DNA of 64,000 nt from Longispora fulva (GTDB lineage Bacteria; Actinomycetota; Actinomycetes; Mycobacteriales; Micromonosporaceae), in contig NZ_JADOUF010000001.1 of NCBI RefSeq assembly GCF_015751905.1, positions 3,348,001-3,412,000 on the forward strand, written 5' to 3'. Positions 22,377-32,995 of this stretch are shown here, in pieces (positions within the stretch are counted from its first letter, which is position 1; every line of letters starts with the position of its first letter). The position numbers and the translations under genes were made by a program. The notes beneath the pieces are model-generated. The model had not been told where the DNA came from. It saw nothing but the letters and a program-made list of their open reading frames with translations, and did not search any database.

Positions 22377-22910
22377 TCAGGCCGGCGGCCAGTGCTCCGC
22401 GAGCAGCCCGAACAGCAGGTCGTCGGTCCATTCGCCCTTGATGAAGGTGTAGGCCGGCCGCAGCCCCTCCCGGCGGAACCCCACCCGTTCCAGGAGCCGG
22501 GCGGACGCCCCGTTACGGGCGTCGCACTCGGCGGACACCCGGCGCAGCCCCCGGCCGAACAGGTGCGCGAGCAGCCCCCGGACGGCCTCGGTGGCGTAGC
22601 CGTGGCCGTGGCGGTCGGCGGCGAGGGTGAAGCCCAGGTCGGCCTGCATCAGGTTGTCGTCGAGGCGGCAGCCGAGGTCGCCGATCAGCACGCCCTCGGA
22701 GCGCAGCTCGACGGCCCACTGGAACCAGCCCGGCGCGCCCGGGTCCCCCGCGGCGAACCGGCGGACGAGGTCCGCGGCGTCGGCGGGCGTCAGCGGCGTG
22801 GTCCACGACTGGTAGCGGGCGATGGCCGGGTCGGAGCGGTAGGCGGCCAGTGCCGGGGCGTCGGCGGGCCGGAAGCGGCGGAGGACGAGGCGGTCGGTGT
22901 CGAGGTGCAC
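22377..22910 (-). CDS. GNAT N-acetyltransferase, RimJ/RimL type
   Basis: The 177-residue protein is a complete RimJ/RimL-like GNAT. It opens with the characteristic LDTDRLVLRRFRPADA, and the acetyl-CoA pyrophosphate loop is RHGHGYATEAVRGLL (Q/RxxGxG/A pattern), followed by NGASARLLERVGFRREG. These enzymes acetylate N-termini or small amines. It diverges from the RiPP operon, sharing the 92-bp intergenic region, but is a common housekeeping-type gene and is not clearly part of the cluster. Confidence 0.88.
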   Translation of the reverse strand: MHLDTDRLVLRRFRPADAPALAAYRSDPAIARYQSWTTPLTPADAADLVRRFAAGDPGAPGWFQWAVELRSEGVLIGDLGCRLDDNLMQADLGFTLAADRHGHGYATEAVRGLLAHLFGRGLRRVSAECDARNGASARLLERVGFRREGLRPAYTFIKGEWTDDLLFGLLAEHWPPA

Positions 22911-22964
22911 GAGCGCAGTATGCCGGCTATGGTCCAGCGAATTCCCGCGCCATCTGACACAACA

Positions 22965-22994
22965 TTGACAGAGATGATTCCCTCGGGCTAACGA
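22965..22994 (+). promoter_or_regulatory. Candidate promoter of the RiPP operon
   Basis: TTGACA (22965-22970) is a consensus -35 element, followed after 18 bases by TAACGA (22989-22994) as a weak -10. The predicted start of transcription falls at about 23001-23003, on the GTG of the YcaO gene. No Shine-Dalgarno sequence precedes that GTG, so a leaderless mRNA is plausible. Confidence 0.5.
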
Positions 22995-23002
22995 GCGTTA
23001 AC

Positions 23003-24358
23003 GTGACCCCCAACGTGAGCCGAGCGCACGTTCTCCGGGAGGGTCGGATGCTGGTGGGTGGGCTGGAGAGCCTGGTCTCTCCGTACGGACTGGTGGGGCA
23101 GGTCGCCCGACTGTCCATCGCCGACGGTGAACCCCGGTTCCCCGTGGTCAGCGGCAGCGTCGGCAACCTGGGCGCAGTCCTCGACATGCAGGTCGGCCTC
23201 GCCGCGCACGACCCCGGCATGGGCAACATCGACGGCGCCGGCGGCGACCTGGACCCGGAGCGCGCGGCGTTCCTGGCGATCGCCGAGTCGCTCGAACGGT
23301 ACTCGTCGTGCGCCTGGCGGCCGGAACGGATGGTCTGGGCCAGCGCCCACGACCTGGGCGTCGACCTGTCCCGCTGGCCGGCGTGCTCCCCCGCCGAGCT
23401 GGCCGACCCGGACAGCACCCTGCTGGCCCCCGACCCCGACGGGCCGATGCGCTGGGTCGAGGGCTGGTCGCTCACCCACGACCGGCCGACGTACGTGCCG
23501 GCGCTGCTGGCCTGGCTGAAGAACCCGCCGCAGTCGCGGGCCGAGCGGTTCGCGCACATGGTGTCCACCGGCTGCGCCACCCACACCGACCCGGTCGCGG
23601 CCGTGGTCGGCGGCCTCCTGGAGGTGGTGGAGCGCGACGCGATCACCCTCGCCTGGCTGCACCGGCTGCGGCTGCCCCGCCTGGAGGTCCGGCCCGGCGA
23701 ACTGTCCGCGGACCAGGAGGCGGCCGTCGCGCGCGGCACCGTGCAGCACCTGCGGATGGAACTGTTCGACGCGACCACGGACCTCGGGATCCCCGTCGTG
23801 TACGGGCTCCAGCTCGCCGACCACGACCCGGCACTCGCCCAACTCGTGTCCGCCACCTGCGACCCCGACCCGGGCCGGGCGGTGGCCAAGCTGTACCGGG
23901 AGGCCACCTCCGTGCGGATCGCCCTGCGCAGCATGATCGCGACCGGGGCCCGCGACTACGCCGGGGACTCGATCAGCGTCGTCGCCGGGGCGCTGCGGAT
24001 GGGCCGGCGCGAGCAGCGGTCCCGGTTCGGCTTCCTGCTCGACGGCGACCGGCCCACCCACTCCCTCGCCGACCTGCCCCGTCCACCGTCGACCGCACCG
24101 GTGGCGGTCCTGCGCTGGCTGCTGGAGCGGCTCACCGCGCGCGGCTGCGAGGTGATCGTCGTCGACCTCACCACCGACGAGGCCGCCCAGGCCGGCTCGA
24201 CCGTCGTGCACGTGCTGGTGCCGGAGCTGATGCCGCTGTCCTTCGACCCGCACGCGCGCTACCTGGCCCACCGCCGGCTGTACGACGGGCCGGCGCGGAT
24301 GGGGCACCCGGTCCTTGTCGAGGAGGAGCTCAACCGTGACCCGCAACCCTTCGCCTGA
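23003..24358 (+). CDS. YcaO-domain cyclodehydratase (azoline-forming)
   Basis: The 451-residue protein is a YcaO-family enzyme, which uses ATP to activate backbone amides so that Cys, Ser or Thr side chains cyclise to azolines. ATP/Mg-binding motifs are present: AESLERYSS (Glu95, Glu98, Arg99) and LEVVERDA (Glu207, Glu210, Arg211). The C-terminus ends in DPQPFA, close to the Pro-rich PxPxP-like tail of peptide-modifying YcaO proteins. It has no fused E1-like domain, so it needs a partner, and the next gene encodes one and overlaps it by 23 bp. Its GTG start may be leaderless. Confidence 0.92.
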   Translation: MTPNVSRAHVLREGRMLVGGLESLVSPYGLVGQVARLSIADGEPRFPVVSGSVGNLGAVLDMQVGLAAHDPGMGNIDGAGGDLDPERAAFLAIAESLERYSSCAWRPERMVWASAHDLGVDLSRWPACSPAELADPDSTLLAPDPDGPMRWVEGWSLTHDRPTYVPALLAWLKNPPQSRAERFAHMVSTGCATHTDPVAAVVGGLLEVVERDAITLAWLHRLRLPRLEVRPGELSADQEAAVARGTVQHLRMELFDATTDLGIPVVYGLQLADHDPALAQLVSATCDPDPGRAVAKLYREATSVRIALRSMIATGARDYAGDSISVVAGALRMGRREQRSRFGFLLDGDRPTHSLADLPRPPSTAPVAVLRWLLERLTARGCEVIVVDLTTDEAAQAGSTVVHVLVPELMPLSFDPHARYLAHRRLYDGPARMGHPVLVEEELNRDPQPFA

Positions 24359-25007
24359 GGGAGTGCCCCGCCTGACCCTGCTGGCGGTGGGGGACTTCGG
24401 CGCCCGAATCGCCGCGCGGCTCGCCGACCGGTACCCGGGCAGCGAGGTCACCGACGCGACCGGCGGCGCGCATCTGGCCGACTGGCCGGCGCTCGACGTC
24501 CTCGTGGTGGCGGCGGAGTACGACGACCCGGGGCTGGTCGAGCTGGCCGAGCGGGCGGCGTTCGCGTGGCGGCGGCCGTGGTTCCCCGTGCTCCTGGAGC
24601 AGGCGCAGCTGCGGTGCGGCCCGGTGGTGGTGCCCGGAAGGACGGCGTGCCACGGATGTTTCCGTCGGCGGCGGCGTCAGCACGCGAAGAGCCCCGAGTT
24701 GTGGGCCGACACCCCGGCGCCCGTGCTGCCCGGGACGCGCCCACAGGTGACGGGGTGGGCGGAGCACCACCTGGGACTGGGTGTCGGGTTGGCGGTGCGG
24801 GCGGTGCACGACGCGGTGCGGCCGACCGACGAGGCGCCCGGTGGCTGGGTGCGCACCGTCGGGCTCGTCGACGGCGGGGTGCAGCGGGCGGGGGTGGTGG
24901 CCGTGGACGGCTGCGTCCGGTGCCGCGACGCCATGGCCCGGGACCGACGACGTGCCGTGCTCATCACGACGCTGCGGGCCGCGGCGTCTGCGACAGGGGG
25001 CGAGTGA
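24336..25007 (+). CDS. E1-like cyclodehydratase partner protein (short form)
   Basis: This 223-residue protein resembles the E1-like partner (TIGR03882-type) that brings the precursor to YcaO. It opens with a Rossmann-like strand (LTLLAVGDFGARIAARLADR) and has two zinc-type CxxC pairs: Cys105/Cys108 in CHGCFRRRRRQ and Cys193/Cys196 in CVRC. There is no clear N-terminal leader-recognition domain, so leader binding may be left to the next protein. GTG 24336 follows GAGGAGGA inside the end of the YcaO gene. The stop overlaps the next ATG (TGATG-type junction). Confidence 0.82.
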   Translation: MTRNPSPEGVPRLTLLAVGDFGARIAARLADRYPGSEVTDATGGAHLADWPALDVLVVAAEYDDPGLVELAERAAFAWRRPWFPVLLEQAQLRCGPVVVPGRTACHGCFRRRRRQHAKSPELWADTPAPVLPGTRPQVTGWAEHHLGLGVGLAVRAVHDAVRPTDEAPGGWVRTVGLVDGGVQRAGVVAVDGCVRCRDAMARDRRRAVLITTLRAAASATGGE

Positions 25008-26650
25008 TGGCCGACCAGCCGATCAGCGCGCAGACCATGGCCCGGGCCGCCCGGCACGACCCGCAGTTCGCGGTTCCGGCCCGGCCCCGGGTCCGGCGCG
25101 GCCTGGTTATCCGTCGGCACGACGACCGGCTCGTGGTCGAGGGCGCCCCGACCCGGCACGTGCTGCGCGGCCGGGCGGCGACCCAGCTGGTGCCGCGGCT
25201 GCTGCCGCTCCTCGACGGGGTCCGCGACCATCCGGCGATCGCCGCCGATCTCGGGGTGAGCGAGCAGACGGTGTTCACGGTGCTGAGTCTGTTGTGGACC
25301 TGCGGCGTGGTCGAGGAGGCCGCGCCGCCCGGCGCCGATGTGTCCCGGGTGCCGGGGCACCTGGCCGACTACCTGTCCCGGATCGGGGACGCGACCGAGG
25401 CCAACGCCGCCTGGGAGGACGCCGCCGGCCGCCTGGCCGCCGCCCGGCTCCGGATCGAGGGCGACCCCCGGCTGGTCGCGGCGCTGCGGACCCAGCTGGC
25501 CGGGACCGTGCCGGACCTCGACGCCGCCGAACCGTCGCTGGTGGTCGTGTGCGCCACCCCGGACAACCCCGTCGATCGGGTACTGACGTCGCAGTGCTGG
25601 TCCCTCGGCACCCCCGTCCTGCACGTGGGCCTGTCCGGTGACGTGGTGGAGATCGGCCCGTACGTGGACCGCCGGCTCGGCCCGTGCCTGGACTGCCTCC
25701 TGGACGACGCCGACCCACCCGAAGAGTCCACAGTAGAGGATGTCGAGCTGGGCGCGGCCCTGGCCGCCGCCGACCTGGTGGCCCTCCTCAGCCGGGCCGC
25801 CCGGGTCGGACTGCCCGGCAGGTGGCGGCGGATCGGCCTCAACCGGCTCGCCCAGTCGGGCCGCAGCGGGGTCAGCCGGCCCGGCTGCCCGGCGTGCTCG
25901 GCGGTCCCCGACGAACCCCGCCCCACCCCGGTGTCCGCCCGCTACGAGGCCGCCGTCGCCCTGCCGCCCAAGGAGTACGCCGACGCCAAGGCGCACCAGG
26001 TGCACTACCAGCCGGCGAACGTCGCCCTGCAACGCGGCCACAAGACGTGGCCCGTCGCTCCCCGGCAGAAGATCCCCCCGGCCGACCTGGACCTGCTCAC
26101 CGCGCCCGCCGCGCCCCTGGACCCCGAGCGCCTGGCGTTGCTGCTGGCCGTGGCCGCCGGGTGGCGGCACGAGACCCCGGACCGGGTCTGGCGGTGGACG
26201 GCCAGCGGCGGCAACATCGGCTCCGTCGTCGCGCACGTCCTCGTCCGCGACCTCGACGGCGTCCCGCCCGGCGTGTACGGCTACGTCCCCGCCGGCCACG
26301 AACTGGCCCTGCTGCGGCCGGGCACCCCCGCCCCGTGCTCGCCGGACTGCACCGCGCCGGTGTGCCTGCTGTGCACCGGTGACCTACCCAGGGTCGCGTC
26401 GAAGTACGGCGCGTTCGGGCTGCGGGTCGTGCTCCTCGACGCCGGGTGCGCCCAGGCCGCCGTGCTGTCGGCGGCCGACGCGCTCGGCGTACGGGCCCGG
26501 GTCGCGGTCGACATCGACGACGAGCGGCTCGGCGACCTGCTGGGCATCGACCTGGACGCCGAACCGTTCACGGGCGTGATCCACCTGGCGGAACCCGACG
26601 CGCACCACCCGGAGCCGAGCGCGGGACACCAGCGAGAGGAACGGCGATGA
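25007..26650 (+). CDS. E1-like leader-binding protein fused to a degenerate nitroreductase-like domain
   Basis: The 547-residue product has three parts. Residues 25-105 look like a winged-helix recognition element (VLRGRAATQLVPRLLPLLDG, then ADLGVSEQTVFTVLSLLWTCG). Residues 110-310 are E1-like, with zinc-type pairs Cys227/Cys230 and Cys294/Cys297. Residues 345-535 resemble a SagB/nitroreductase fold (ERLALLLAVAAG, then PGVYGYVPAGHELALLRPG), but the FMN-binding RxSxR motif is missing. It is probably the scaffold that binds the leader. Its end overlaps the next gene by 4 bp. The combination with a second E1-like protein and a separate dehydrogenase is unusual. Confidence 0.8.
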   Translation: MADQPISAQTMARAARHDPQFAVPARPRVRRGLVIRRHDDRLVVEGAPTRHVLRGRAATQLVPRLLPLLDGVRDHPAIAADLGVSEQTVFTVLSLLWTCGVVEEAAPPGADVSRVPGHLADYLSRIGDATEANAAWEDAAGRLAAARLRIEGDPRLVAALRTQLAGTVPDLDAAEPSLVVVCATPDNPVDRVLTSQCWSLGTPVLHVGLSGDVVEIGPYVDRRLGPCLDCLLDDADPPEESTVEDVELGAALAAADLVALLSRAARVGLPGRWRRIGLNRLAQSGRSGVSRPGCPACSAVPDEPRPTPVSARYEAAVALPPKEYADAKAHQVHYQPANVALQRGHKTWPVAPRQKIPPADLDLLTAPAAPLDPERLALLLAVAAGWRHETPDRVWRWTASGGNIGSVVAHVLVRDLDGVPPGVYGYVPAGHELALLRPGTPAPCSPDCTAPVCLLCTGDLPRVASKYGAFGLRVVLLDAGCAQAAVLSAADALGVRARVAVDIDDERLGDLLGIDLDAEPFTGVIHLAEPDAHHPEPSAGHQREERR

Positions 26651-27390
26651 GCGCGATCAGCCTGACCGTCGACGTCCTGCGGTCCTTCCGCGAAGAGGAC
26701 CGGCCGGCGTCGGCGCAGAACCCGCCCGGCACGCCGGGCGTCCACGGACCCACGCCGCCGCCCGACCCGATCGGCCCCCCGATCGCACTCCCGACGCCCG
26801 CCGCGCCCCGGTCCGGCGTCCTCGCCGAGGTGCTCCGGCAACGCCGCGCCATCCGGTACTTCCGCCCCGAACCCGTCGACCTGGCCACCCTGCTCGGCGC
26901 GGTCACCGAGGGCCTCGCCGCCGACCGGTCCCGCTGGCCGGGCGAACACCCCCTGGTCCCCGTCGTCGTCGCGCAGAACGTCACCGGCCTGCCACCGGCC
27001 GTCTACCGGCTCGACGGGGACACGGCCTCCCCCGTGATGGCGCTGTCCGGCCCGGCGGCGTACGAGGAACTCACCCTGCAGAAGGAGTTCGCCACGGCCG
27101 GCGCGATCGTGTCACTGCTCGGCGACCTGGAGGCCGCCGGGCACGCGCACGGCGGGGCCGGGTTCCGGACGCTGATGACCAGGGCCGGCGCGGCCGGGTA
27201 CCAGATGTGGCTGGCCGCGATCGCCCACGGCCTGGTCGGCAGCGTGTTCGCCGGTTTCCTGCCGGCGGCGATCCGCACCCCGCTGCGCTGCGACGGCGTG
27301 ACCCGGCACCAACTGTTCGCGCTGGCCGTCGGCCATCCCGGCGTGGACCTCCCGACTTCCGCCGGTGCCGGACCGGCGGACGAGACCTGA
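26647..27390 (+). CDS. SagB-like FMN-dependent azoline dehydrogenase
   Basis: The 247-residue protein is a nitroreductase-fold oxidase that converts azolines to azoles in this type of pathway. RRAIRYF (near 67-73) is the FMN-binding RxxxRxF motif, and AGYQMWLAAIAHGLVG with the following FAGF is the C-terminal half of the flavin site. A 60-residue Pro-rich N-terminal extension precedes the domain. It starts within the ATGA overlap with the previous gene, 18 bp before the precursor gene. The catalytic Lys-Tyr pair of some SagB enzymes is not obvious. Confidence 0.85.
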   Translation: MSAISLTVDVLRSFREEDRPASAQNPPGTPGVHGPTPPPDPIGPPIALPTPAAPRSGVLAEVLRQRRAIRYFRPEPVDLATLLGAVTEGLAADRSRWPGEHPLVPVVVAQNVTGLPPAVYRLDGDTASPVMALSGPAAYEELTLQKEFATAGAIVSLLGDLEAAGHAHGGAGFRTLMTRAGAAGYQMWLAAIAHGLVGSVFAGFLPAAIRTPLRCDGVTRHQLFALAVGHPGVDLPTSAGAGPADET

Positions 27391-27408
27391 GGAGAGGGGG
27401 TGAATCCC

Positions 27409-27606
27409 ATGGATCTGGAACTCGAGCTGTTCGCCGAGGTCGCCGACGGCCCGTTGGTGATCGAGGAACTGCCCGACGGCAACTCGCTGTCGGTCGTCGC
27501 GTGCATCATCAGTTGCGCCGTGACGCACGCGTGCGCCACTGAGTGTCTCGGCACGGCCAGCACCGTCACCTGCGGACCGTGCGCGTCGTCCATCGTCGGA
27601 CACTGA
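27409..27606 (+). CDS. RiPP precursor peptide, Cys/Thr/Ser-rich core
   Basis: The 65-residue peptide has an acidic leader (residues 1-31) and a core rich in cyclisable residues: Cys32, 36, 42, 46, 55 and 58, Thr39, 44, 49, 52 and 54, Ser35, 51, 60 and 61. The leader (FAEVADG, then EELPDGNS and VVA) resembles thiopeptide leaders, which commonly read F-E-x-A-D, E-x-L, G-x-x-x-x-V-x-A. Cleavage near Ala31 would release a 34-residue core. ATG 27409 follows GGAGAGGGGG; an in-frame GTG at 27400 would add three residues. Leader comparison is from memory of the family, not a search. Confidence 0.85.
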   Translation: MDLELELFAEVADGPLVIEELPDGNSLSVVACIISCAVTHACATECLGTASTVTCGPCASSIVGH

Positions 27607-27616
27607 CAGACGGGTG

Positions 27617-27653
27617 CCTGGTTCCGGGATGTCACCACCACCCCGGAACCAGG
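27617..27653 (+). terminator. Hairpin just after the precursor gene, likely attenuator
   Basis: Perfect 12-bp arms CCTGGTTCCGGG (27617-27628) and CCCGGAACCAGG (27642-27653) enclose a 13-base loop. The hairpin begins 10 bp after the precursor stop and ends 33 bp before the protease gene. Such structures after RiPP precursor genes typically stabilise the short message and lower expression of downstream genes. Confidence 0.8.
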
Positions 27654-27686
27654 ACCTGCGTGCAGTATGACCGCGACGGGAGGACC

Positions 27687-28748
27687 GTGTCGTACCCCAG
27701 ATTGCGCGACGGCGTCCAACTGCTCGTCGGCATGGACGACCTGCCCCTGGCCTACGACGGCCGGACGGGCCGCTACCACCGGCTCAGCCGCGCGGCCGTG
27801 GCCACCCTCCGGCTCCTCGACGGCACCCGCTCCGCCGAGGAGGTCACGCACGCGCTCGCCGCCGCCCGCCGGCAGGAACCAGGGACGGCCCGCGCCGAGC
27901 TGGACCTGTTCCTCGCCACCCTCGACCGCGCCGGTCTGCTGCACGGCCCGGCCGCGCCCGGCACGCCACCGGCCCGCCGGTCCCTGCTGCTGCCCCGATT
28001 CGTCGTCACCCGCGCGCTCCCCCGGGCCCTGGAGCCCCTGGCTGACCGGCTGCGGACCGGCCGGCGGGGTGCCGTGGCGATGGCCGTCCTCGCCGTGGCC
28101 GGGGTCGCCGGCACGGCACTCGGGATCGCCGGGTTCCTCACCGCCGCCCGGCCGCCCGGCTGGAGCTGGGCGTTCGCCGTCGCCGCTGCCCTCCTCGTCC
28201 TCCAGGTGTGCGTGCACGAGGCGGCGCACGCCCTGGTCTGCCAGGTGCTACGGGCACCGGTCCGGGGCGCCGGGTTCGCGCTGCTGCTGTGGCTGTTGCC
28301 GGTGGCGTTCGTGGACCGCACGGACGCCTACCGGGTCCGGTCCCGGCGCGGGCGGCTCGCCCTGACCCTGGCCGGACCGCTGTGCGACGGAGTGTGCATG
28401 GGGGTCACCGCCGCGCTCGCGCTCACCGGGCACGGGACCGCCGTCGCCGGGCACCTGCTGGTGTTCCAGACGTTCGCGCTGCTGCTCAACGTGAACCCGC
28501 TGCTGCCCAGCGACGGGTACGTGGCCGTCGAGGTCCTGTTCGGGCTCGTCGACCCGCGCGGCCGGGCCCTCTCGCTCCTGGCCCACACGGTGCGGGGGCG
28601 GACTCTGCCGCCGCACCTGGCGAGCCTGCCCCGGCGTACCCGTCTGGTGTTGGTGGGTTACGGGGTCGTCTGTGTGGCGTATCTGGGGCTGGTCGCGGCC
28701 ACCGCCGTGTCCGGGCTGCTGTCGCTCGCGGCCCGACTCCTCAGCTGA
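27687..28748 (+). CDS. PqqD-like plus M50 membrane metalloprotease, probable precursor-processing enzyme
   Basis: The 353-residue protein starts with a PqqD-like segment (1-80: LAYDGRTGRYHRLSRAAVAT), a fold that often binds RiPP leaders. After a Pro-rich linker come about six membrane helices with the site-2 protease motif HEAAH (His177, Glu178, His181) and NPLLPSDGY, matching the second M50 motif with its metal-binding Asp. A leader-peptidase role, possibly coupled to export, is inferred from the cluster. GTG 27687 follows GGGAGGA. No dedicated ABC transporter is in the cluster. Confidence 0.82.
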   Translation: MSYPRLRDGVQLLVGMDDLPLAYDGRTGRYHRLSRAAVATLRLLDGTRSAEEVTHALAAARRQEPGTARAELDLFLATLDRAGLLHGPAAPGTPPARRSLLLPRFVVTRALPRALEPLADRLRTGRRGAVAMAVLAVAGVAGTALGIAGFLTAARPPGWSWAFAVAAALLVLQVCVHEAAHALVCQVLRAPVRGAGFALLLWLLPVAFVDRTDAYRVRSRRGRLALTLAGPLCDGVCMGVTAALALTGHGTAVAGHLLVFQTFALLLNVNPLLPSDGYVAVEVLFGLVDPRGRALSLLAHTVRGRTLPPHLASLPRRTRLVLVGYGVVCVAYLGLVAATAVSGLLSLAARLLS

Positions 28749-28762
28749 TCACGTACCCGAAA

Positions 28763-28781
28763 CGTCACCCGGCCGGTGACG
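28763..28781. terminator. Hairpin at the convergent end of the RiPP operon
   Basis: CGTCACC (28763-28769) pairs with GGTGACG (28775-28781) around CGGCC. It lies 14 bp past the M50 gene stop and covers the last codons of the converging CHAP gene, so it can end transcription from both sides. Confidence 0.55.
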
Positions 28782-29349
28782 CGAAGCCCTCGATGGTGCC
28801 GGCGACCCGCGGCACGAACCGGCGCTCGGTGACCCCGCCGGTCACGTTGCCCTCGACCGTGGACACCCAGCCCAGGTGCGCGGCCACGACGACGCCGACG
28901 TGGTCGGACGCGCCGTCGGGGACCTCGAACGCCCCGTCCCGGTACACGATCAGGTCCCCCGGCCTGGGCGTGTAGTCGGAGTCCGCCGGATGCCAGGTGC
29001 CGTGCCGCTCGCCGTACTTCCGGCCGGAGCGGGCCCAGCTGTCCAGCTCGTCGGCACCAGGCACTCCTGCACCCTTCCACACGTACCGGGCGAAGTCGGC
29101 GCACCACGGGCCGCGGCTCCACCCGGCCGGGCAGCCCTTGGCCTGGCCCCGCGCCTGGCCGGAGTAGAAGATGCAGTCGTCGACCTGGTGGTTGCGGCCC
29201 GCGTCGTCGAGCTCGGTCTCCGCGACCTCGACGGCCCGCCCGGCGGCGGCGCTCGCCGGACTCGACACCGGCCAGGCGAGAACGGCCACCGCCGCCAGCC
29301 CGACGGCCACCACGACGGCTCCGACGACCGGCCATCTCCTGCGCGCCAT
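28765..29349 (-). CDS. Secreted CHAP-domain hydrolase-like protein
   Basis: The 194-residue protein has an N-terminal signal or anchor helix (6-28) and a CHAP/NlpC-like cysteine-peptidase domain. Catalytic candidates are Cys83 in WCADFARYVW and His150 in SDHVGVVVAA, with GDLIVYRDG between them, as in peptidoglycan amidases and endopeptidases. ATG 29349 follows GGGGAGG. It converges on the RiPP operon and is more likely a cell-wall enzyme than part of the pathway, although some RiPP clusters recruit secreted peptidases. Confidence 0.82.
   Translation of the reverse strand: MARRRWPVVGAVVVAVGLAAVAVLAWPVSSPASAAAGRAVEVAETELDDAGRNHQVDDCIFYSGQARGQAKGCPAGWSRGPWCADFARYVWKGAGVPGADELDSWARSGRKYGERHGTWHPADSDYTPRPGDLIVYRDGAFEVPDGASDHVGVVVAAHLGWVSTVEGNVTGGVTERRFVPRVAGTIEGFASPAG

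Positions 29350-30488: not shown

Positions 30489-32995
<2,507 letters not shown>

Follow-up and report, generated by a model that had tools for sequence, protein, structure and literature searches.

Azole formation in the berninamycin-type thiopeptides is carried out by a module split over four genes, and besides it these clusters encode a LanB dehydratase, a thiopeptide core and a pyridine synthase; some of them also have a second YcaO, which is fused. For sulfomycin, passages of PMC10634744 describe SulF as carrying a recognition element (RRE) for ribosomally synthesized and post-translationally modified peptides (RiPPs), SulE, SulF and SulG as forming a complex, and a larger complex as including the cyclodehydratase SulD. 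In a different described system, spongiicolazolicins A and B of Streptomyces sp. CWH03 are linear azole peptides of 29 and 28 residues that reportedly showed no antibacterial activity (passages of PMC8838263). Heterocycloanthracin and thiocillin/micrococcin follow the same logic of a YcaO, an RRE/E1 scaffold and a dehydrogenase, and in the passages of PMC10634744 and PMC4603692 that describe them the YcaO is fused to an E1-like domain and a single dehydrogenase protein serves micrococcin. Here we analyze a 64,000-nucleotide stretch (the window) of the genome of Longispora fulva, which is one contig of 8.68 Mb, and in it a 5.8-kb operon of six plus-strand genes (23003-28748) for a YcaO, an E1-like protein, an RRE/E1-SagB fusion, a nitroreductase, a precursor peptide and a PqqD-M50 protease, the YcaO being separate from the E1-like protein. 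Judged by gene content and homology, it is probably an operon for a linear azol(in)e-containing peptide (LAP) that belongs to a dehydratase-less branch of a spongiicolazolicin-like family.

The original prediction, made from the sequence of this stretch, assigned the LAP class, which is right, and proposed an undescribed gene set and a new system, which overstates the case. The four ring-forming enzymes make up the split module already known from berninamycin-type thiopeptides: GenG2, GenG1, GenE2 and GenE1 of geninthiocin B form the same four-gene module, as do SulD, SulE, SulF and SulG according to the descriptive passages of PMC10634744. We identify our locus L081 (Streptomyces sp. YIM 130001; gene lengths 448, 212, 543, 234, 357 and 46) with the geninthiocin B producer, for which the excerpted text of PMC6306032 prints the same lengths for genG2, genG1, genE2, genE1, genD and genA; no M50 gene is seen in this locus, whereas the operon has one. 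Moreover, five of the six genes stand in the same order, with the same leader type, in the spongiicolazolicin producer CWH03 (Streptomyces pacificus; L126), which has the azole module, an M50 gene and four precursors. The CWH03 YcaO, small E1-like, RRE/E1-SagB, nitroreductase and PqqD-M50 proteins are 45, 30, 34, 38 and 36% identical to those of the operon, which thus shares with the spongiicolazolicin type its azole module, its PqqD-M50 protease and a homologous leader. The CWH03 precursors leave 29, 28, 29 and 29 residues when the first two are cut after ...SA and the other two after ...P, and from the lengths and the shared ...SA we infer that the two ...SA precursors are those of spongiicolazolicins A and B. 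L126 differs from the operon by a LanB-like gene of 929 aa (recognized by a family LanB profile, not by Pfam) and an elimination gene (PF14028, 117 bits), which its four precursors follow. What is new in the operon is the absent dehydratase together with a single precursor that has six Cys; titles, abstract starts and passages of the open-access literature gave no description of a LanB-less cluster with a PqqD-M50 protease.

To collect relatives, an alignment of the 547-aa E1-SagB protein and two short peptide patterns were used to scan a set of 84,980 species genomes, and gene types in the loci were assigned with profiles built from the loci. In the synteny search that the original prediction had proposed, restricted to the best 80 of 100 relatives, the YcaO, E1, E1-SagB and nitroreductase genes occur in this order in 74 loci and an M50 gene occurs in 59; a LanB-like gene accompanies the M50 gene in 53 of these 59, and the other six are all from Actinoplanes. 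The 53 loci with both genes come from Streptomyces, Nonomuraea, Sphaerisporangium, Planobispora, Actinomyces, two Bacillus and others, and they include the sequences closest to the operon, those of the Streptomyces narbonensis locus L054 (YcaO 62%, E1-SagB 49% and M50 49% identity). Their leaders carry the motif EELPxGNAL, and in most of them the precursors lie between the nitroreductase and M50 genes, as in the operon. They differ from it in having LanB-like and elimination genes 3' of the M50 gene, in their precursor number (three to six tandem leader-profile matches in 37 of 53 loci and one in 15 of 53, against the single precursor here) and in cores that are mostly rich in Ser, Thr and Ala, with an SCP motif that is of the SASTASCP type in tandem-precursor loci. 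Most of the Actinomyces loci in this group have one repeat-bearing precursor rather than tandem ones. The same four-gene azole module is also found without LanB or M50 genes in L046, L047, L048, L049, L051 and L133; as read from the sequence, a DUF692-like gene is present in L046 and L048 and an ABC-transporter-like gene in L046, L047, L049, L051 and L133.

The features of the operon are collected in the table. All parts named by the original prediction lie at the place and on the strand given there, and each is matched by a family profile search, the M50 domain below its cut-off with its motifs present. Both proteins described as E1-like are E1-like, but the second also holds a SagB domain according to profiles, with which the structure model agrees; a SagB-like dehydrogenase is therefore present, as predicted, but nitroreductase-type subunits number two, the SagB domain of the fusion and a stand-alone protein. 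Of the overlapping junctions, three of five hold (24336-24358, 25005-25007 and 26647-26650), but the precursor gene is flanked by gaps of 9 bases on its 5' side and 53 bases on its 3' side (taking the M50 start as 27660), the latter with a strong hairpin inside, and the last gene ends 33 bases before the predicted limit of 28781. The precursor has the predicted 65 residues when read from ATG 27409, the gene caller's choice, and 68 when read from GTG 27400. The six open reading frames (ORFs) are all intact, with a GC content at third codon positions (GC3) of 0.87-0.96 and coding-like codon positions, and no transporter gene is found among them.

Features of the operon and its surroundings (positions in the window)
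Feature	Positions	Strand	Remarks
Possible promoter, TTGACA-N18-TAACGA	22965..22994	+	by eye, weak; 5' of first gene
YcaO cyclodehydratase, GenG2/SulD-like	23003..24358	+	start GTG 23003 or ATG 23048 (gene caller's choice)
Small E1-like (ocin-ThiF type) partner, GenG1/SulE-like	24336..25007	+	TIGR03882
RRE-like N-terminal block, E1-like and SagB-like flavin dehydrogenase domains, GenE2/SulF-like, 547 aa	25007..26650	+	
Stand-alone nitroreductase-type subunit, GenE1/SulG-like, 247 aa	26647..27390	+	PF00881
Precursor, 68 aa, leader ...LVIEELPDGNSL	27400..27606	+	leave-out leader profile
12-bp perfect hairpin, no T run	27617..27653	+	between precursor and protease genes
PqqD-like domain fused to M50 intramembrane metalloprotease, 362 aa	27660..28748	+	start GTG 27660 or 27687

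The azole chemistry that had been predicted from YcaO, E1-like and SagB-like proteins is supported by the family matches. The YcaO scores E 3.4e-91 with TIGR03604 and E 1.5e-59 with PF02624 and retains 60 of 61 columns that are conserved at ≥95% in the family; the small E1-like protein scores 45.3 bits with TIGR03882 (cut-off 36.9) and retains all 10 of its conserved columns. As in LAP clusters, a YcaO with an E1-like/ocin-ThiF partner thus adjoins the precursor. The fusion protein matches TIGR03605 (E 7.4e-16) and TIGR03882 (E 5.5e-7), both under the curated cut-offs, and keeps 30 of 32 conserved columns. Its AlphaFold2 model (mean predicted local distance difference test score, pLDDT, 90.4) finds in Foldseek the LynD entry 4v1t (E 1.4e-15) and ThcOx (E 6e-12), as well as the TruD heterocyclase, MccB and McbBCD chains; a sequence search of the Protein Data Bank with proteins P0002 and P0003 gave weak matches. 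In the model, residues 27-104 form an N-terminal strand-and-helix block that could be the RRE. The stand-alone nitroreductase (PF00881, 35 bits, cut-off 23.5; conserved columns 12/12; model pLDDT 88.0) resembles nitroreductases, BmdC, ThcOx and McbBCD chains in Foldseek.

The active-site motifs are divided between the two flavoenzyme subunits, as seen in 39 aligned sequences of each and one single-chain control. In the SagB domain, R396, W397, N403, G405, K466 and Y467 are kept in 39/39 sequences and an RR(S/T/A)xR motif after residue 320 in 0/39. The nitroreductase has R66 in 39/39 and the fuller RxxxR(x)F/Y pattern in 23 of them, with KY or SGG/GGN in none. In the control, the single-chain SagB of another azole cluster in the same genome (L140), RRSTRDF, RTVPSGGG and RKYG occur together in one chain. 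We take these motifs to be the flavin-binding and oxidation-catalyzing ones of the family, and their division suggests why two flavoenzyme subunits are needed; the stand-alone nitroreductase is proposed to be the flavin-phosphate-binding half of the dehydrogenase.

A profile of the leader, made from 13 precursors that belong to other loci and without the L. fulva one, places the precursor at the top of the window's 433 small ORFs (E 1e-8, with the runner-up at 0.27), and the precursor is therefore not a chance ORF. Its leader ELELFAEVADGPLVIEELPDGNSL resembles ELYAIDGDLAIEELPQGNALG of related clusters. With the cut placed as would yield the spongiicolazolicins in L126, the predicted core is 38 aa long and contains 6 Cys and 10 Ser/Thr. 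When the whole genome was searched with a leader alignment that included this precursor, no second copy appeared below E 2.

Taken together, the best reading of the operon is that its product would be a linear azole peptide that bears thiazoles and is free of dehydroalanine. No LanB, elimination or pyridine synthase gene is present in the window, so that the operon lacks both the split LanB glutamylation and elimination genes that mark the spongiicolazolicin/goadsporin type and the pyridine synthase and LanB of the berninamycin type; a search of the genome and of the operon genes also gave no macrocyclizing or [4+2] enzyme, as is expected of a LAP. The linear product that the original prediction had put forward in place of a thiopeptide is thus supported, with no fitting spare enzyme elsewhere in the genome. 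The chance of a thiopeptide completed by a pyridine synthase and a dehydratase encoded elsewhere seems close to negligible. It would account for the berninamycin-type ring-forming module and for the weak match of precursor residues 9-58 to the thiocillin family NF033482 (21.8 bits, cut-off 25). However, a genome search with the berninamycin-type enzyme of G136, which finds itself in G136, gave no pyridine synthase, nor did NF045556, a search in which no positive control matched, and the operon core is unlike the berninamycin-like cores of L081 and L141, whose Ser-rich tail it seems to lack. G136, a member of the same family as L. fulva, itself has a berninamycin-like thiopeptide cluster (L035 and L141) with the core SCTTSGCACSSSSSSSS, a second fused YcaO, a LanB and a TIGR03891 gene.

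Several points weigh against a dehydratase-less LAP. A LanB-like gene is present in the full-set clusters most similar to the operon, the core has 10 Ser/Thr residues, the nearest relative (L034 in genome G037) is a remnant, so that decay of the lineage is possible, and both dehydrogenase parts score below the curated SagB cut-offs. In addition, Cys makes up 0.36 of the Cys, Ser and Thr of the core, within the range of the LanB-bearing loci (0.06-0.48; 53 loci, median 0.13), and the core alone therefore does not show that dehydration is absent. The median for LanB-less loci is 0.875 (n = 14), with Actinoplanes at 0.76 or more; the Cys share was not used as proof of a loss of dehydration, as the difference rests on Actinoplanes and the window overlaps the LanB-bearing range. 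It should be noted that five Actinoplanes loci are counted twice in this comparison (as G-handle and named copies) and that, from 101 sources, 34 without a leader-profile match were left out, among them L120, whose precursor is visible otherwise.

These points bear first on a goadsporin- or spongiicolazolicin-type product with dehydroalanines, in which a LanB encoded elsewhere in the genome would act in trans on the Ser and Thr of the core. We consider this very unlikely, although the nearest relatives carry LanB-like and elimination genes and the genome has LanB-type genes with PF04738 matches at 2724877 and 3236123-3238042. The genome-wide check for a dehydratase outside the window, a nearby one having been named in the original prediction as a finding that would change the class, places both in other contexts. 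The first belongs to a lanthipeptide cluster of its own near 2.73 Mb, ∼0.65 Mb from the operon, with the only TIGR03891 and PF14028 matches of the genome (2726995 and 2729079) and a small peptide gene that is FxLD-like by its sequence. The second is a LanB-type stretch in a 1035-aa protein with a thioesterase-like start, by reading (3236123-3238171; L053, gene 10), beside nonribosomal peptide synthetase (NRPS) and polyketide synthase genes. PF04738 alone is a poor test because, of six LanB-like genes tried, it recognizes three (L035, L059 and L119) and misses those of L054, L082 and L126; PF14028 recognizes all four elimination genes tried. A family LanB profile, seeded with genes placed before a TIGR03891-like gene and built without the CWH03 LanB, recovers that LanB at E 8e-73; its sole match in the L. 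fulva genome is the NRPS-linked stretch (E 7.3e-11).

A tree of the E1-SagB protein (88 rows) joins L. fulva and the G037 remnant as a pair (support 97) inside a set of 54 rows (support 100), 50 of which carry a LanB-like gene; the four without one are the window, L034, L064 (on an 8.6-kb contig) and L118. The program that made the tree flagged the branches of both members of this pair as long. Nine Actinoplanes-type rows form a separate group (support 100). That the two LanB-less M50 groups share one origin was rejected. Nine rows that had long branches or came from partial loci (L034, L051, L049, L132, L128, L064, L108, L101 and L130) were removed, and on the remaining 79 rows the constraint costs 130 log-likelihood units, with a p value of 1.8e-78 in the approximately unbiased (AU) test; the group was named after the first tree had been seen, and this p value should not be read as one from a test planned beforehand. 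On this placement, the simplest reading is a separate loss of the dehydratase in the L. fulva lineage.

The remnant also raises the prospect that the operon is a decaying cluster that has already lost its dehydratase, transporter and further precursors and makes no product. In L034 the E1, E1-SagB and nitroreductase genes remain, the YcaO, M50 gene and precursor core are gone, the start of a leader (MNPVELDLYAED) runs on from the nitroreductase frame, and the E1-SagB protein retains 25 of its 32 conserved columns, where that of L. fulva retains 30. Two overlapping family-level searches covered 250 and 354 genomes; among the 354, 12 match the 547-aa protein at E 1e-40 or better, and the full set of the operon's subtype occurs in L. 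fulva only, the other 11 being the G037 remnant, G136 with berninamycin-like and Actinoplanes-type clusters, and nine of the Actinoplanes type. Nevertheless, decay is unlikely here: besides its intact ORFs with their coding-like codon positions and its well-conserved leader, the operon retains 141 of 146 highly conserved family columns in its enzymes, and it is not read as dead for that reason.

The Actinoplanes loci L099, L107, L112-L114 and L120 (G-handle copies L036-L043, L151 and L152) have the same six-gene order as the operon and no LanB-like gene, meaning none within the locus. Their precursors, read in three frames since codon-usage gene calling took the wrong frame, consist of Gly-Cys repeats (e.g., CGGCHGCHGCHGC) with 12-20 Cys, and 24 in L120, whereas the operon core is not repetitive. 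For such clusters one could guess that the product is no antibiotic but a poly-thiazole or thiol peptide that binds metal, a guess with which the reported inactivity of the spongiicolazolicins would agree. As a description of the L. fulva product it is highly improbable, given a core without repeats, operon families that include no metal-linked gene, and two LanB-less groups that are not sisters. A broader scenario, which is rather unlikely as a whole, would have the dehydratase lost at least twice toward an all-azole, Cys-driven system, the core shifting to Cys each time, with the PqqD-M50 protein as the sole processing and export step of a very small, self-contained operon that has a two-subunit, SulFG-like dehydrogenase and possibly a non-antibiotic (e.g., metal-binding) peptide. 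The azole module is shared by thiopeptides, spongiicolazolicin-like peptides and the dehydratase-less clusters of L. fulva and Actinoplanes, and comparing them amounts to a natural experiment that could tell which parts of the azole chemistry need dehydration.

The protease has a PqqD domain (PF05402, 32.4 bits, cut-off 23.4) and an M50 peptidase domain that scores below its cut-off (18.6 versus 27.2 bits) and has the motifs of the family, HExxH as HEAAH (residue 205 of P0006) and NVNPLLPSDG; 29 of 31 conserved columns are retained. Membership in the daptides was rejected, since the daptide M50 family NF041824 matches at E 3e-27 but with 95.7 bits against a curated cut-off of 300. Cutting and export by one M50 protein have been proposed for the epipeptide protease EpeP (passages of PMC10885120), and by analogy the operon protein may both cut and export, which is possible because the operon is without a transporter gene. 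Passages of a review name M50 proteases for epipeptides and pearlins and the M103 family for LAPs, and in the portions of the open-access literature searched, a body that does not include the original spongiicolazolicin paper, no description was found of a PqqD-M50 protease acting on azole peptides.

For the dehydratase-less LAP operon we propose the following course. The leader ELELFAEVADGPLVIEELPDGNSL would dock on the RRE-like block of the fusion protein, and the small E1-like protein would present the core to the discrete YcaO, which, with ATP, would close Cys (and some Thr/Ser) onto the backbone to give azolines. The SagB domain and the stand-alone nitroreductase, with their complementary motifs, would act as one flavin dehydrogenase and convert azolines to azoles. 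The PqqD-M50 membrane protease would then rebind the leader and cut near ...DGNSL|SVV, and might help in export. Neither dehydration of Ser/Thr nor a macrocycle is expected, and the predicted product has ∼38 residues and up to six thiazoles; the monoisotopic mass calculated for the 38-residue core (SVVAC...VGH) is 3621.64 Da without modification and 3501.49 Da with six thiazoles. Being small and without a transporter, the operon is a convenient system in which to study the heteromeric dehydrogenase and the way in which a PqqD-M50 protein removes a leader.

Scans for promoter (22700-29000) and terminator consensus sequences gave nothing above threshold. Around the hairpin behind the precursor gene, the RNA fold of 27598-27690 has −46.6 kcal/mol (z −4.05), a value that none of 200 shuffles reached. 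The hairpin may set the ratio of precursor to protease mRNA or stabilize the transcript, and, having no T run, would more likely limit transcription than end it.

On the minus strand, 2 kb from the operon, lie a TPR protein (30489-31958; TPR only by Pfam) with a C-terminal part that reads as 2-oxoglutarate oxygenase-like and, adjoining it, a gene with long GTGTDDGTG repeats and no Pfam match (31955-32977). Elsewhere in the genome, the second azole cluster mentioned above (L140, at 1708855) comprises a YcaO, an E1-like protein, the single-chain SagB and a tandem pair of precursors that are nearly identical and end in CGGGNCCC(T/S)SCCSW. A third YcaO, at 2201151 (L139), stands beside a TfuA-like gene and a gene for a 599-aa radical-SAM/B12-like protein, both by reading, and a 41-aa peptide, and by this content looks like a thioamide RiPP cluster.

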